Source: Cutibacterium porci (lineage in GTDB: Bacteria; Actinomycetota; Actinomycetes; Propionibacteriales; Propionibacteriaceae). Taken from it: 64,000 nt of DNA. How positions within the stretch are numbered: the first letter of the stretch is position 1; every line of letters begins with the position of its first letter. The notes under the pieces are model-generated. The model worked only from the letters and a program-made list of their open reading frames with translations, was not told the origin of the DNA and ran no database searches. This document shows positions 20,251-27,803 of this stretch, one piece after another. The stretch covers positions 124,001 through 188,000 of the forward strand of contig NZ_VUMG01000004.1 of the NCBI RefSeq assembly GCF_009696315.1, written 5' to 3'. The translations under genes and the position numbers were made by a program.

Positions 20251-21699
20251 TCAGCCGACCGCACCCTCCATCTGCAGTTCGATGAGTCGGTTGAGCTCCA
20301 GGGCATATTCCATCGGTAGCTCCTTGGCGATGGGCTCGATGAATCCGCGCACAATCATGGCCATTGCCTCTTCCTCAGTGAGACCACGCTGCATGAGGTA
20401 AAACAGCTGATCCTCACTGACTTTCGAGACTGTGGCCTCATGAGCCATTGACACCTCATCAGTACGAATGTCGTTGTAGGGGTAGGTGTCCGACCTTGAG
20501 ATGTCATCGACAAGGAGGGCGTCACAGCGCACCGCCGACGAGGAGTGATGGGCGTCCTTACCCACGGAAATCAGGCCGCGGTAGGCCGAGCGTCCCCCGC
20601 CCTGGGAGATCGACTTGGAGACGATTGTCGATGAGGTATACGGGGCGTTGTGGATCATCTTGGCGCCGGTGTCCTGATGCTGTCCTTCGGCAGCAAAAGC
20701 GACTGACAGTGCCTCGCCCTTGGCATGAGCGCCCATGAGGTAGCAGGCTGGGTACTTCATGTTCGACTTGGAGCCGATGTTGCCGTCGATCCACTCCATC
20801 GTGCCCCCTTCCTCAACGTAGGCACGCTGAGTGACGAGGTTGTACACGTTGTTCGACCAGTTCTGGATAGTTGTGTATCGGCACCGCGCATTTTTCTTGA
20901 CGACGATCTCGACGACTGCGGCATGCAAGGAATCCGACTTGTAAATCGGGGCGGTGCAGCCCTCGACATAGTGAACGTATGCGCCTTCATCGACGATAAT
21001 CAAGGTCCGCTCAAACTGTCCGAGATTCTCGGTATTCATACGGAAGTAAGCCTGCAGCGGAATGGTGCAGTGAACTCCCTTTGGCACATAGATGAAGGAG
21101 CCGCCCGACCACACCGCCGAGTTGAGGGCCGAGAACTTGTTGTCACCTAGCGGCACAACACTGGCGAAGTGCTCACGGAAAAGCTCAGGCTCCTCCTTGA
21201 GTGCAGTGTCGGTGTCGAGGAAGACGACACCTTGCTTGCCGAGCTCTTCGTTGATCTTGTGATAGACCACCTCAGACTCGTACTGTGCCGCAACTCCGGC
21301 GACCAGACGGTCTTTTTCGGCCTCCGGGATGCCCAAACGGTCGTAGGTGTTCTTAATGTCAGATGGCAGGTCCTCCCACGACGCCGCCTGACGCTCTTGG
21401 GCACGCACGAAGTATTTGATCTGGTCAAAGTCGATCGTGCTGAGGTCGACGCCCCAGGTTGGCATCGGTTTGCGTTGGAAGAGCCTGAGAGCTTTGAGAC
21501 GCATATCAAGCATCCATTGCGGCTCGTGCTTCATCGCCGAGATACCGCGCACGACATCCTCGGATAGTCCGCGCTGGGATGCAGCAGCGTAAGCGTCGGA
21601 ATCATGCCAGCCATATTTGTAACCGCTCAAAGCAGCCAGGTGTTCATCTTGGCTAGCGCCGGCGCCCGGGACGCTCGTAGGGGTGTCAACCTGGGTCAT
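20251..21699 (-). CDS. sufB: Fe-S scaffold subunit SufB
   Basis: 482 residues, main cluster-building subunit of SufBCD. Conserved stretches: [13 protein letters not shown] near the N-terminus, [39 protein letters not shown] with the conserved Cys, and [20 protein letters not shown]. The ATG at 21699 overlaps the sufR stop and follows AAAGGACCATTC; the longer frame from 21789 lies inside sufR. 52 bases separate it from sufD. Confidence 0.94.
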
Positions 21700-22460
21700 G
21701 AATGGTCCTTTCGGATGGATGGACGCTGGGACGGCTCGGAAAGTGCCCGGCGGGTGATTTCGACGTCGACGGGAACATGGGTGGTGCATACCCCATCGCC
21801 GTGTGCGATCGTCGCCAACCGCTGGACGTGGGACCCGAGGAGTTCAGAAAACAGCTGAGTCTCAACCTCGCATAGCTGCGGGAAGACCTTAGCCACTTCG
21901 GCGACGGGGCAATTGTGTTGGCAAATCTGCTGCCCGGCACCGGCAGGTTGGATAGTGGCGACGTATCCGTCAGCCGACAGGGCCTCAGCGAGCAACTGGG
22001 CTGGGACGTCGTCGGGGTGCATCTGACGCAGCGCGCGGTAACGCAACTCGATGTCGTCGACTCGCGCCTTAGCTACTGCGTCAAGGGCGGACGGGCCCGC
22101 CGCGTCAGCAAGCTGCCGGAGGGCCGATATCGCAAGATCGTCGTAGGCGGTGTAATAGTCAGCCCGCCCGTGATCGGTCAAGAAAAACACCCGGGACGGG
22201 CGACCCCTTCCGCGAGCACCAAAGACTTTCTTTTCACGGGAATCCACCAGGCCCTGACTCACCAGGGTACTGAGATGACGACGTACTGCTGCTGCTGTCA
22301 AGCCGAGACGATCAGCTAGTTCACCGGCCGTCGACGGGCCATTGTGCAGGATGGACGACATCACACGATCCCTCGTGGACCTGTCCGTAGCTTCCTGCTT
22401 GTGCTCGCCGACGACGTCGAGACCTGTAGCGGCCACCTCGGTGTCGGTCGAATTTTTCAC
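21696..22460 (-). CDS. sufR: SufR-type Fe-S-sensing transcriptional repressor
   Basis: 254 residues from a GTG. N-terminal winged helix (about 32-80: [37 protein letters not shown]) and a C-terminal cluster-binding region with [11 protein letters not shown], a Cys about 13 residues later in QLCEVE, and a further DGVCTTH. That pattern is the SufR Cys set holding an Fe-S cluster. SufR represses suf operons when clusters are plentiful. As first gene it overlaps sufB by ATGA. A partial second copy of its 5' end lies at 24211-24374. Confidence 0.88.
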
Positions 22461-22501
22461 AACACCATTGTTACCTAAACCGACTCCGATGCAAATTAGG
22501 T
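22460..22501. promoter_or_regulatory. Candidate SufR operator region upstream of sufR
   Basis: CAAC-ACCATT-GTTA (22460-22473) is one mismatch from the CAAC-N6-GTTG element described for cyanobacterial SufR, and it overlaps the sufR start. A second inverted pair, ACCTAA (22473-22478) and TTAGGT (22496-22501), spans the probable promoter. Binding by SufR is inferred, not shown. Confidence 0.4.
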
Positions 22502-22828
22502 CATCCTATGTCGGTGGCAGCCCACCGATGGGCACCCCGAGCAACACAACGAGGCCGAGACCATGCGTGGCTCGGCCTCACTGATGCAAAGCCGGACCAC
22601 CTGCACAGCCTCATGCCCTTTGACCGAATCAACATTCGAGGTGGTGAGTTTCTCCGCCCGCGACATGACGCTGGTGTCCTGACATGCGGAGCAGACGAGG
22701 TCACCTTGATACGACGAGGTCACCTTGATACTCGGAGAAGGAGAGACCTCGCCCCGAGAGTCGCCACATCCAAACAGGCCGACGAGACTAACCATCAGAA
22801 CTGGCAGCACAGCAAGTCTTCTCACCAC
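22496..22828 (-). pseudogene. Decayed paralogue of the small lipoprotein
   Basis: From a GTG pair at 22828/22825 the frame encodes a lipoprotein signal (LVGLFGC lipobox) and a short protein sharing AEKLTTSN---VKGHEA with the lipoprotein at 24375-24815 (AQELTTSN---IKGHKA). The rest does not match: the C-terminal half is lost, and the middle contains a perfect 19-bp tandem duplication that cannot preserve frame. It reads through to a stop at 22496, overlapping the sufR promoter. A shortened but expressed protein cannot be excluded. Confidence 0.6.
22694..22731. repeat. 19-bp perfect tandem duplication
   Basis: GACGAGGTCACCTTGATAC occurs twice without a gap (22694-22712 and 22713-22731) inside the decayed lipoprotein gene. 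Nineteen is not a multiple of three, so it changes the reading frame. It looks like a recent replication slippage. Confidence 0.9.
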
Positions 22829-22868
22829 GTCACCGACTTCTTCCACGCGCGAAGGCCACTCAACTGGG

Positions 22869-23849
22869 TCACGTAATAAGTACACCGATATTGCGTGCCT
22901 GCCTTTTTCTCCCATGACCTGTGACGACGCCAGCATAAATCATCTTGCCAGATCCATTGTTGCAATACACTGACCCTCCAGAATCACCACCCCTGAAGCC
23001 ATTACATCCATGCGTATTGATACGATCTTCATTCTTCGCAAGTTTTGTGACATGACCAGTCCTTACATTATTTCCCATACGTCGCCTGGACCACAAAACA
23101 ACAGATCTGTGCGGCCGTCCTTCTGGACGCACACAACTGGCGGTCACCTGTCAAGGACCCACAATTCGCCCCTGCACCGCGATGCCGAGACGAGGATGAC
23201 TATCCGGAATTGTAGACGTCAGCAGAATAAGATTTTTCTGACAGCATCTTCCAATCACCTTAAATAGCTGCGTTTCCTGGATGCGACGTGGTGTATTTGT
23301 TACCAACAGCTTCACCCTGCGGCGTATAGTGTGTTCCGCCTGAACAGGCCCCGCAGTGAGCATGACATAGTGGCCGTTGTAACGGGCTCGCGGCCCCAAC
23401 GAGCACATGAATCCCTTGGCCCTGATATCTGCACCGGAAGTGATTTGAGTCGACTTCAAGTCCAACGACGAAAGCTCCACCTCAACGACATAGATGGGAG
23501 GGATGCTTCCGTTGGACCGCCCCAGCCAATCACACACTCGAAGGGCCTTGATGTAAATCCTCAAGCCCGATTAATCACGATAAAACTCGCCCCCACCCCA
23601 TACGTCGCGATGCCGATCAAAAACGCTCGTCAATTTATCACTGGCATCATTGGCTTGTCTGAAAGGAGAGCCATCAAAAGAATACAGACCGAGGACTCTC
23701 ACAGATCGCACGGACCGGCTCCCCCTCTTCCGGTGCCGCTTGGGACGCCCCTGCCTGAAATACAACAGCAGAGAATCCCCACAAGACCCAAAGACGACCA
23801 TGAATTGTTGTTCATAGCCATCACCATTCTCTGAACGAGGTAACAGCAC
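22869..23849 (-). pseudogene. Decayed copy of the secreted S1 serine protease
   Basis: Read right to left, several frames keep pieces of the protease at 24847-26086: LYSFDGSP and HRDVWGGGEFYRD (propeptide), SGADIRAKGFMCSLGP---YVMLTAG (before the catalytic His), CSGGTHYTPQGEAVGNKYTTSHPGN, GDWKMLSEKSYS, and HGCNGFRGGDSGGSVY (around the catalytic Ser). The AGHC codons have lost a base, destroying the active-site His and shifting the frame; a TAA replaces the Tyr before GDW; GDSGGP has become GDSGGS. Several independent lesions mean a dead gene. The signal peptide is no longer recognisable. Confidence 0.75.
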
Positions 23850-24210
23850 TAGCAGACGTAGGTGTCATCGATGACAAAAGGGCGTCGTTATCCTTTTCCC
23901 GAAATTAAATGCCGCAACACCAGAACACCCACTCGGTCAAGCCTGCGACAACACTCACATAAAGTCCCCGCGTGGCAAGAATCCGTACCTCACACATTTT
24001 CCCCGAGAAGTGAGTGTCGGCCACGATGGGGTGTGACCGCCAAGGACATGTCAATGGCTGCCCGATGAAGGCCCGTCTGCGACAGGTCCCAGGTCGCGCC
24101 AGCGCCACGGTCGCGGTCATCGACCGACGTCACACCAAGGCCTACACGATGCCCGCAAGGTCCTCCAGCAGGTGTGGGCAGTCTCGGGGGGATTGTGTGG
24201 CACATATCCG
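23850..24210. other. Unassigned spacer between the duplicated units
   Basis: No supported gene. This stretch lies between the remnant N-terminus of the left protease copy and the sufR fragment, and it matches neither unit by eye. Open frames occur on both strands (for example 24014-24304 plus and 23905-24120 minus), but none has a recognisable product or a good ribosome site. It may be foreign sequence or the scrambled junction of the duplication. Confidence 0.5.
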
Positions 24211-24374
24211 GCCGGCCGCGGTAAGACCGAGAAGATCAGCCAAGTCGCTTGCCGTCGACGGGCCGTTGTGCAGGATGGACGACCTCACGCGATCCCTCGT
24301 GTAGCTGTCACCACTGGCCTGCTGGTGTCCGCCGACGACATCGCGATCCGCGACTGTCAGGTGGCTCTCGGTCG
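24211..24374 (-). pseudogene. Truncated duplicate of the sufR 5' end
   Basis: Encodes DRDVVGGHQQASGDSYTRD followed by [27 protein letters not shown], clearly homologous to SufR residues about 14-58. Similarity stops abruptly at about 24211, in the middle of the recognition helix, and the frame then reads unrelated sequence to a stop near 24142. Without the rest of the HTH and the cluster-binding Cys it cannot act as SufR. It lies directly after the lipoprotein gene, as sufR does in the left unit. Confidence 0.75.
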
Positions 24375-24815
24375 TCAGCTCAAGTTCTCTCCGCACTCCA
24401 CGATCCGATGCCACCACACCTGTCCATCGTCAGTCAGTATGTACACCTTGCCTGGCGCGACGTGGCAGTCCGCTTCAGTGGGAACGGGTGTGTCGCCCAG
24501 GATTCCGGACTTGCGGATCTCACGCATATCGGCGTCACTGTAAGGGCCTTGTGGCACGACTTCCTCCGCTTGACCTGACGGTTTTACCCAGCACACCCAG
24601 GCCTTGTGTCCCTTGATGTGGGCAAGATTGGATGTGGTCAGTTCTTGAGCGCGGTCAAGCTGATCTCGGTCTCGGCACATAGCCAGTGCCGCTGATGATG
24701 TCGTCGCGACGGGTGGTGAGGCCTGGTCGTCGGGCTTCGGGGTCGAGGTGCACGCTGTAACCATCAGTACCATCGCGACGATGGCACCCCACCATGCCGA
24801 GCTTCTCCTTACCAT
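24375..24815 (-). CDS. Small secreted lipoprotein of unknown function
   Basis: 146 residues with a clear lipoprotein signal: basic MVRRSS, hydrophobic WGAIVAMVLMV and lipobox VTAC (Cys22). The mature part has a Pro/Ser/Thr-rich stretch, then CRDRDQLDRAQELTTSNLAHIKGHKAWVCWV and DCHVAPGKVYILTDDGQVWWHRIVECGENLS; four Cys could form two disulfides. No family recognised. It starts 32 bases after the protease stop, so protease and lipoprotein were probably one transcript, suggesting a functional link such as inhibitor, foldase or anchor. The paralogue at 22496-22828 is decayed. Confidence 0.65.
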   Translation of the reverse strand: MVRRSSAWWGAIVAMVLMVTACTSTPKPDDQASPPVATTSSAALAMCRDRDQLDRAQELTTSNLAHIKGHKAWVCWVKPSGQAEEVVPQGPYSDADMREIRKSGILGDTPVPTEADCHVAPGKVYILTDDGQVWWHRIVECGENLS

Positions 24816-24846
24816 CCGACTGAGCTTTTCCACGCGCGAACTCCAC

Positions 24847-26086
24847 TCAATTGCGTGGCGTAGTAGGTGCATCGTTTTGTGTCCCCGGCTTCCACCACGA
24901 GTAACCTCTAACCAAGCCGACATAGACCATCTTTCCGGATCCATTGTTATAATACATTGGGCCGCCCGAATCTCCCCCTCTAGTACCATTACAACCATGG
25001 GAATTCCATCTACCCTCTTGCTTGGCAAGCTTTATTTGATGACCAGCCGTAACACCATCAAGCTTGCTGCGACCAAAATTGCCTTGCACGATATATCCGC
25101 AGATCTGCCCCGTAGTTCTACCCGAGCTGCACAGCTGACGGCCAACAGCGAGACCACCAAAAAAGAGCCCAGCGCCAGGATGGCGTGATGACGAGGAATT
25201 CCCTGCGTTATACACGTTTGGCGAGTACGATTTTCCCGCAATCAACTTCCAGTCACCATAGACGTTCGCATTCCCCGGATACGCGGTAGTGTATTCCAAC
25301 TGGCCTTTTTGTCGGGGTGTAGTGAGTGCCACCAGAGCAATGACCTGCCGTGAGCATCATATACTTATCCCCCTAGACGAGCACGGGGCCAAGTGAACAC
25401 ATCAGCCCTTCTGCCCGAATATCCGCACCAGCAGAAAATGGCGGCGCATCATTTCCACGTGTCGCAGCATTCCTCCCTTCGATGCCGGTACGAATATATA
25501 CAATAGAAACTTCGACCGGACCATTGACCTTCCGAGCCACGCGAGGAACCGAGGACATGACCCGTACCGAGGCTTGCTTACCCAATCGACTCGACGTCAC
25601 CCCCGACGACTCAACGACCACTCGACCGTTTTCAGGATCCGAGTTAGCCGACATGACCGGAGATGGATCGCGATCAAGCGCAGCCTGCTCCGCGGCCTCA
25701 AATTCAAGGGACGAGAACCGGGATTTATAGACATGAATTCCCACTTTGGGATAATGAGCCGATACATCTCCGATAGCCTTCTTGGACGCATCATCCTGAT
25801 AGGCGATGTAGACTGCAAGACCACTGTAATCGCGACAGAAATGCACCCCAGCCCAACTGTCACGATGCTCAGAGAAATAGTTCGACAGTTCTTCACTGGC
25901 CGCCAATGCATCACGGCCAGGAGAGCCGATGAACTCATAGGATCCCGGTTCAGTCTGGGCGCTTTCGCAGGCAGGCTTCGAATCCTCGGAAGGAGGTTCA
26001 GCTGATGCACTCGGCCCTGTCCCCGCTATCGCACCCACAACGAGAGCAGATGCCAGACACACTCCCATAGTTCTTCGCAGTTTCAT
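24847..26086 (-). pseudogene. Secreted S1-family serine protease interrupted by one stop and one frameshift
   Basis: Starts at ATG 26086 after GGGAGAAGCATC. Signal peptide about 1-31 (ending SASA), a propeptide-like region with SNYFSEHRDSWAGVHFCRDY, then the chymotrypsin-like domain. The frame stops at TAG (25373-25375) right after AEGLMCSLGPVLV. Read past it, the same frame continues GDKYMMLTAGHCSGGTHYTP with the catalytic His. A frameshift in an A-rich run near 25310 is then needed to continue to LEYTTAYPGNANVYGDWKLIAGKSY (probable catalytic Asp in GDW) and GCNGTRGGDSGGPMYYNNGSGKM (catalytic Ser), ending at 24847. All catalytic motifs are intact, so inactivation looks recent. Confidence 0.75.
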
Positions 26087-26111
26087 GATGCTTCTCCCAT
26101 CAGTCGCTGAT

Positions 26112-26133
26112 ATCCAGTCACCGATGACTGGAT
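26112..26133. promoter_or_regulatory. Inverted repeat in the protease leader
   Basis: ATCCAGTCA-CCGA-TGACTGGAT, a perfect 9-bp inverted repeat 26 bases upstream of the protease ATG. It could be an operator or an mRNA hairpin. The divergent mal operon starts about 400 bp away. Confidence 0.45.
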
Positions 26134-26305
26134 GATGTCGTGTAGCATCACCGTGGTGGAACATCACACGACGCCGTAGGCCGACGATCTTTACGGCAAG
26201 TAAAACATACCTGCAAACGCGACACAAGACCCCCTCCGGTGTCCGCGATGCCGCTGCCCGCAGCGCCCAACCGAGCAACGGAACGCCCAGCCCCATGCAG
26301 ACCAT

Positions 26306-26537: not shown

Positions 26538-27803
26538 ATGTCCGATATCACCCGTCGCTCGATGCTCCTTGGAAGCCTCGGCGTCGCTGCCGTCGGCGTC
26601 CTGTCCGCATGCGGCGGCAATGACTCCCCCTCGTCATCCACGTCGTCAGCATCCGGTGCGGCATCCTCGGCCGCCGGAGCTGCCGGCTCAATCCTGGTGT
26701 GGACTGACTCCAACCGTGAACCCGTCCTGCGCAAGGTCGCCGAACAGTTCAAGTCCGACACCGGCGTTACCGTCAAGCTGGCTGTCAAGGACTTCGCCAA
26801 GATCCCCGACGATTTCATCACCCAAGTCCCGACTGGTAAGGGTCCTGACGCCGCCATCACTGCCCACGACAACACCGGCCGTATGGTTCAAAATGGCGTC
26901 GTCGCCCCGCTAGAACTTGGTGACACCTCTGCCTACCAGGACGTCGCCATCCAGGCCTTTACCGTCAACGGCAGAATCTACGGCGTCCCCTACGCCACCG
27001 AGAACATTGCCCTGGTTCGCAACACCAAGTTCGTCAAGGACGCCCCAAAGACCTTCGATGAGATGATCGAGATGGGCAAGAAGTCCGGCGCGAAGTACCC
27101 CTTCCTCGTCGGCCTTGACCCCAAGCAGTCCGATCCGTACCACCTGTACCCGTTCCAAGCCTCGTTCGGTGCCCCGGTCTTCGAGCTCAAGGACAACGGC
27201 TTCGACGCCAGCAAGGTCACCATGGGCGGCGCTAACGGCGAAAAATTCGCAACCTGGCTGGCTGAGCAGGGCAAGACCAAGAACCTCAACCTCAACATCT
27301 CTCAAGACATCTCCAAAGATCTATTCGGCAAGGGACAGGCTGCCTTCATCCTCACCGGACCGTGGAGCCTCGATGGCTTCAAGAAGGCTGGCATCACGTA
27401 CGAGATCAGCGAGGTTCCCTCCGCCGGTGGCCAGCCTGCCACCCCGTTCGTCGGTGTCCAGGGATTCTGGATGAGCGCCAAGACTAAGAACGCCGTCGCC
27501 ACCCAGAAATTCCTCGTCGAGTACGTCGGTAACCCGGACGTTCAGGCCGAGCTGTTCAAGGTCGGCAACCGCCCGCCGGCCAACAAGCAGGCCTTCGAGA
27601 AGGCCAAGGCAGACAAGGATGTCGCTGCATTCGGGGCCGTCGGCCAGAAGGCCGTCCCGATGCCGAACATCCCCGCCATGGGCTCGGTGTGGGCTGACTG
27701 GGGCGTCGCCGAGGCCCAGATCATCAGTGGCAAGGCCTCTGACCCCAAGGCCACCTGGGACAAGGCCGTGACGTCCATCAACGACAAGATCACGAAGGGC
27801 TGA
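26538..27803 (+). CDS. malE: Maltose/maltodextrin-type ABC sugar-binding lipoprotein
   Basis: 421 residues. The N-terminus MSDITRRSMLLGS has twin arginines and the lipobox LSAC (Cys25), suggesting a Tat-exported lipoprotein anchored outside the membrane. The mature part is a family 1 solute-binding protein: ILVWTDSNREPVLRKVAEQF, FITQVPTGKGPDA, VNGRIYGVPYATENIALVRNT, FILTGPWSLDGFKKAG and the C-terminal AQIISGKASDPKATWDKAVTSIN, all close to MalE of E. coli. The exact oligosaccharide is not determined. A strong GAAAGG site precedes the ATG. First gene of the importer operon. Confidence 0.9.
   Translation: MSDITRRSMLLGSLGVAAVGVLSACGGNDSPSSSTSSASGAASSAAGAAGSILVWTDSNREPVLRKVAEQFKSDTGVTVKLAVKDFAKIPDDFITQVPTGKGPDAAITAHDNTGRMVQNGVVAPLELGDTSAYQDVAIQAFTVNGRIYGVPYATENIALVRNTKFVKDAPKTFDEMIEMGKKSGAKYPFLVGLDPKQSDPYHLYPFQASFGAPVFELKDNGFDASKVTMGGANGEKFATWLAEQGKTKNLNLNISQDISKDLFGKGQAAFILTGPWSLDGFKKAGITYEISEVPSAGGQPATPFVGVQGFWMSAKTKNAVATQKFLVEYVGNPDVQAELFKVGNRPPANKQAFEKAKADKDVAAFGAVGQKAVPMPNIPAMGSVWADWGVAEAQIISGKASDPKATWDKAVTSINDKITKG

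Follow-up and report, generated by a model that had tools for sequence, protein, structure and literature searches.

On the minus strand of the Cutibacterium porci stretch analysed here (the window; 64,000 nucleotides, contig NZ_VUMG01000004.1, positions 124,001 to 188,000, from a 2.61-Mb genome assembled in 19 contigs), a secreted-type serine protease gene and a lipoprotein gene occur twice beside the suf operon, each pair joined to a sufR 5' end. The gene order is protease B, lipoprotein B, a sufR 5' fragment (sufR'), a probable insertion sequence (IS) remnant, protease A, lipoprotein A, sufR, and sufB; a plus-strand operon, named maltose-type ATP-binding cassette (ABC) by its appearance, begins at 26538. 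Protease B overlaps the start of lipoprotein B, directly behind whose stop sits sufR'.

The intervals 22291-23825 and 24215-26086 are collinear, each holding protease, lipoprotein, and sufR 5' end. The two sufR segments (22291-22450 and 24215-24374) are 74% identical at an offset of 1924, and the protease blocks pair at an offset of 1987, bearing out the claim of a preliminary description that this order recurs at offsets of about 1.92-1.99 kb. Permissive BLASTN of 21501-24140 against 24131-26140 returned alignments of 63% over 664 bp (E 2e-58), 74% over 160 bp (E 3e-28), and 65% over 124 bp (E 2e-8). The self-comparison proposed in that description thus gave collinear similarity with a top score of 221 bits, far above both the maximum of 35.4 in 200 dinucleotide shuffles and the maximum of 29.7 among 27 other stretches of the window. 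Old collinear copies therefore lie beside sufR, and the copies were also rightly said to be decaying at different rates, at least in direction, protease A and lipoprotein A being worse affected than the B unit (Table 1).

Table 1. Features of the duplicated locus in the window.
Feature	Position	Strand	Basis
sufR, complete, upstream of sufB	21696..22460	-	Open reading frame of 254 amino acids; helix-turn-helix (HTH) Pfam matches; TIGR02702 84.8 bits; C-terminal cysteines
sufR operator/promoter core overlapping GTG start	22458..22473	-	Window TAACAATGGTGTTGTG; other six ingroup genomes CAACAATGGAGTTGTG
Lipoprotein A remnant, truncated	22598..22835	-	Alignment to G007 lipA; right edge placed by eye
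Protease A remnant	22850..23825	-	Multiple frame changes and stops; lacks its middle; Trypsin PF00089 on one piece
Probable IS left-end remnant (integrase-type transposase N-terminus)	23937..24212	+	G003 DNA similarity; 24144-24212 by eye
sufR 5' fragment, about codons 4-57	24215..24374	-	74% to 22291-22450; without sufR start codon or promoter
Lipoprotein B, open, 146 amino acids, lipobox VTAC	24375..24815	-	Translation; rate of synonymous substitution (dS) 0.08 and 95% DNA identity to G003
Protease B (alpha-lytic-protease-like), broken	24812..26086	-	One premature stop, two frame changes; G007 orthologue open

The age of the duplication was approached through nine Cutibacterium genomes, the window's own (G000) included and one per species. 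Self-alignment of G007 gave 62% identity over 1920 bp, with the module order present twice and in the same place as in the window. Trees of the protease C-terminal part, the protease N-terminal part, and the lipoprotein (200 bootstrap replicates each) grouped A with A and B with B across the window and G007, the A/B split receiving 100% bootstrap support in each. The duplication is therefore older than the window-G007 split, barring a later joint movement of both units. The strain comparison that the preliminary description had suggested for dating the duplication thus yields a lower limit on its age, but the single-copy intact form that it had asked about was not seen at the site in any of the nine genomes.

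The protease match was absent in six of the nine genomes (G001, G002, G004, G005, G006, and G008). In G001, G002, G006, and G008, sufR adjoins malE without the module; the stretches taken around sufR in G004 and G005 (L030), unlike those of G001, G002, and G006, gave no malE or malF match. G003 has no sufR fragment; of its A unit, both protease and lipoprotein survive as shortened remnants, and of its B unit, the lipoprotein gene and the end of the protease. Unrelated sequence stands in place of the remaining protease B, and an open frame in it reads into the protease tail (L028:5745-6200). A tree of rpoB, gyrB, and sufB placed the window with G005, then G001 and G006, with G007 and G002+G003 outside and G004 and G008 as a distant pair.

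The window sufR is open and carries cysteines at 180, 184, 197, and 225. Its match to TIGR02702 (SufR_cyano) lies below the cut-off of 178.8, and we call the product SufR-like, a name taken from its position next to the suf operon, its cysteines, and its operator. It resembles SufR (TIGR02702; Rv1460; S. avermitilis SufR) in the HTH, the C-terminal cysteines, the sufB neighbour, and a CAAC-N6-GTTG sequence at the GTG start together with AACAAT; it differs from TIGR02702 in the score under the cut-off, and 24215-24374 holds an N-terminal part only. Homology of sufR' to SufR ends within the HTH at about codon 57, from where the frame continues to a stop at 24142; the earlier statement that the second sufR stops inside its HTH is thus right for the homology but not for the stop codon itself. 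The fragment is 71-77% identical to every ingroup sufR, with no special nearness to the window's own. In the window and in G007, the sufR fragments lose their similarity near the same codon, consistent with a single original breakpoint. Together with the double order in G007 and the grouping by copy type, this supports the earlier proposal of an old tandem duplication that took the start of sufR along.

The G007 fragment has a further history. Across the promoter and some 30-35 initial codons, G007 sufR and sufR' are identical at 141 of 150 positions (94%), compared with only 114-124 of 150 between G007 sufR and the sufR of the other six ingroup genomes. Outside this 150-bp island, which has sharp edges, the two G007 units agree at 23-82% (60-column windows), and G007 sufR' groups with G007 sufR with ultrafast bootstrap (UFBoot) support of 98. 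So high an identity to sufR cannot go back to the module duplication. The island was taken from sufR once G007 had split off, by gene conversion or by a second copying: its bounded raised identity and within-genome grouping are those expected of gene conversion, and a second copying gives the same picture.

Whether either fragment could serve as an operator bears on the suggestion, also made in the preliminary description, that the duplication links the protease to the boundary of the iron-sulfur (Fe-S) regulon. The CAAC-N6-GTTG motif has been reported as a SufR operator for S. avermitilis (PMC11995493). At the sufR GTG start, the six other ingroup genomes (G001, G002, G003, G005, G006, and G007) carry CAACAATGGAGTTGTG and the window TAACAATGGTGTTGTG; this SufR-type operator, conserved in those six over a possibly leaderless GTG start, has two changes in the window. 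The window fragment has no promoter, operator, or start codon, its similarity starting at about codon 4. A working Fe-S link in the window is therefore unlikely, and the functional tie is not supported. In the G007 fragment, which lies upstream of protA, two pieces of the sufR core promoter/operator (AACAAT and GTTG) survive within the 94% island, and a -35-like TTGCAC (an element named from its spacing) is changed to GTACGC. That a fragment has been retained as a useful spare SufR operator/promoter, placing the following protease copy under Fe-S control, would suit these retained elements in G007 but is very improbable, given the altered -35-like element there, the frameshift near the end of G007 protA, the bare fragment of the window, and the lack of any fragment in G003.

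The two lipoproteins, for which no Pfam match was found up to E 1, have fared differently. Lipoprotein A is truncated in the window, and lipoprotein B is open, with an N-terminal lipobox recognized by eye in the translation. The lipoprotein B genes of the window and G003 differ by 8 synonymous and 12 non-synonymous changes, and their low dS, compared with 0.77 for SufR, 0.81 for SufB, and 0.54 for MalE, points to recent recombination between the two lineages. The common tract covers at least 24066-24143 (92%) and 24374-24958 (95%), adjoining a 69% stretch, and recent exchange of the lipoprotein B segment between these lineages is the best reading.

Both window proteases are broken. Protease A has lost its middle part, and one of its pieces matched Trypsin (PF00089) at E 9e-4 and 19.5 bits, just below the cut-off of 20.6. 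The premature stop of protease B lies at 25373-25375, with frame changes near 25290 and 24880. In G007, protease B is open (434 amino acids) and protease A is frameshifted near its end. The open G007 protease gave no Pfam match up to E 1, and its best NCBIfam match, Rv1815_serprot, scored 21.5, far below the cut-off of 175. A profile of five relatives, the G007 protease included, matched alpha-lytic protease (1qq4, 7.8e-9) and Streptomyces griseus protease A (SGPA, 2e-7) in the PDB across the catalytic domain; the G007 sequence by itself reached only 0.096. H256, D287, and S382 (motifs TAGHC, D, and GDSGG), which we take to be the catalytic triad, are invariant in the five open relatives, and the frame is broken in both window copies. 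Judged from these profiles, the protease is assigned to peptidase family S1 as alpha-lytic-protease-like. As in the S1 pro-proteases alpha-lytic protease and SGPA, a long N-terminal region precedes the catalytic domain; the pro-region of alpha-lytic-type proteases folds as a domain and assists folding. The structure model had a mean predicted local distance difference test (pLDDT) score of 43, the longest stretch not listed below 50 being 63-145. Unlike alpha-lytic protease and SGPA, the Cutibacterium protease has a lipoprotein gene directly behind it, and the window copies are broken.

The pairing may extend beyond the genus. Protease profile matches occurred in at least 16 of 396 genomes of the phylum, the window's own included, with the best four candidates scored per genome. 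We inspected 17 loci behind the protease: four from one search, whose fifth match was G007, and one from each of 13 genomes of the family outside the genus. The protease frame was resolved in all but L053 and L058, and 12 of these 15 were followed or overlapped by a frame bearing either a lipobox or a membrane segment at its N-terminus, as judged by eye without a control set. The partner has a lipobox in eight (L038, L039, L040, L049, L050, L052, L055, and L061); no such partner frame lay behind the protease at L041, L060, or L062. At L054, L056, L057, and L059, where the proteases are more distant relatives, the partner is small and has an N-terminal membrane segment in place of the lipobox. 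Partners were mostly small, that of L052 having 316 amino acids, and the protease of L050 is in two pieces. Partner homology was compared for few loci: against the lipoproteins of G068, G053, and Microbacteriaceae X2B together, those of Cutibacterium gave an hhalign probability of 62 (E 7.5e-5), and against the Arcanobacterium one a match in the signal region only. No account of a protease-lipoprotein gene pair turned up in keyword searches of the literature.

Taken as a whole, the locus is probably explained by an ancestral tandem duplication followed by unequal erosion, overwriting, and exchange. In an ancestral Cutibacterium, the region between sufR and the maltose-type ABC operon would have contained two genes oriented like sufR, first one for a secreted serine protease of alpha-lytic type and then one for a lipoprotein. 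Tandem duplication whose downstream breakpoint fell near codon 57 of sufR would have produced protB-lipB-sufR'-protA-lipA-sufR-sufB, an array then presumably lost without a detected remnant from several ingroup species; the outgroup-like G004 and G008 may never have had it. In the window lineage, protA and lipA would have decayed, an IS fragment come to lie between sufR' and protA, and the gap between lipB and sufR' been deleted together with the sufR' promoter, while protB gained a stop and frame changes and lipB kept its open frame. In the G007 lineage, sufR would have overwritten the beginning of sufR' by one of the two routes given above, and the exchange of the lipB segment between the window and G003 lineages would be recent. 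The architecture, the A/B orthology, the lesions, the G007 identity island, and the low dS of lipB are observed directly; we infer the order and number of these events, and the timing of the IS. The single duplication proposed in the preliminary description therefore stands as an event but is too simple as a history, given the later overwriting of sufR' in G007, the exchange of lipoprotein B, and the probable IS remnant.

Several observations weigh against this reconstruction. The patchy occurrence of the module (window, G003, and G007) calls for three losses or more, or else for some horizontal spread, G003 has no sufR', and the fragment tree places the window sufR' poorly (support of 42 and lower). 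A second copying at a later time could likewise account for the G007 island. Because similarity gives out near the protease starts, the duplicated unit shows no visible upstream edge, and one clean event is only inferred. The window's own transposase remnant had no protein-level match (0 in G000), the query being an open G008 protein with an rve domain.

Some of these points would suit an origin of the two units as xenologues: another species would have supplied a divergent protease-lipoprotein-sufR 5' segment that recombined in beside a resident unit, and the tandem would then have spread among species by recombination. The A and B copies are indeed strongly divergent (62.4% DNA identity over the protease C-terminal part in the window and 66.2% in G007), recombination between species has occurred at this site for lipB, and the module is patchy. 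Yet A and B have the same order and are orthologous by copy type in G007 and the window, so that the event predates their split or moved both units, and no genome of the genus has a single unit at the site, a check for an adjoining sufR that was made within the genus and not at the protease loci of the 13 other family genomes. We consider this origin unlikely. Independent duplications in the window and G007 lineages that yielded the same order are scarcely credible: the G007 sufR fragment does group with its own sufR (UFBoot 98), but independent duplication would not be expected to give the grouping of protease and lipoprotein by copy type at 100% bootstrap.

Under the preferred history of one ancestral duplication, the events are mainly of an ordinary kind (duplication, loss, and recombination), and their record is unusually readable. 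As in other cases of partial tandem duplication with pseudogene decay and gene conversion, a truncated copy of the neighbouring gene lies at the junction, decay is unequal, and homogenization is local. This case differs in that the homogenized tract spans the promoter and first codons of a regulator in one species, and in that a neighbouring piece has been exchanged between species. The locus thus offers a view across several species of a tandem duplication falling apart beside the suf operon, with a common breakpoint, copies decaying unequally, homogenization at the start of a regulator gene (promoter and first codons), and a piece recently exchanged between species.

Within the locus, it is the protease-lipoprotein pair that may deserve a test. 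The intact ancestral pair would presumably have comprised an exported protease and an anchored partner working with or restraining it. The narrower proposal, that the lipoprotein, tethered to the membrane, inhibits the exported protease of alpha-lytic type or acts as an immunity factor for it, the two forming an undescribed actinobacterial gene pair with lipoprotein B kept as an orphan, is quite improbable as it stands. Lipoprotein B is nevertheless kept open in the window and G003 lineages though its own protease is broken, and if the lipoprotein were an immunity factor, its remaining open and being exchanged after the death of the protease would be as expected of an orphan immunity gene.

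A probable IS remnant adjoins the edge of the sufR fragment. Within it, 23937-24143 matches G003 DNA in two pieces (83% and 92%), and in G003 the corresponding stretch aligns with the N-terminal part of an integrase-type transposase (E 1.9e-6). In G008, eight transposase copies of rve type, related to the window remnant, were matched over 1-405 at 99-100% identity. An exact 19-bp tandem repeat lies at 22694-22731, within the lipoprotein A remnant.

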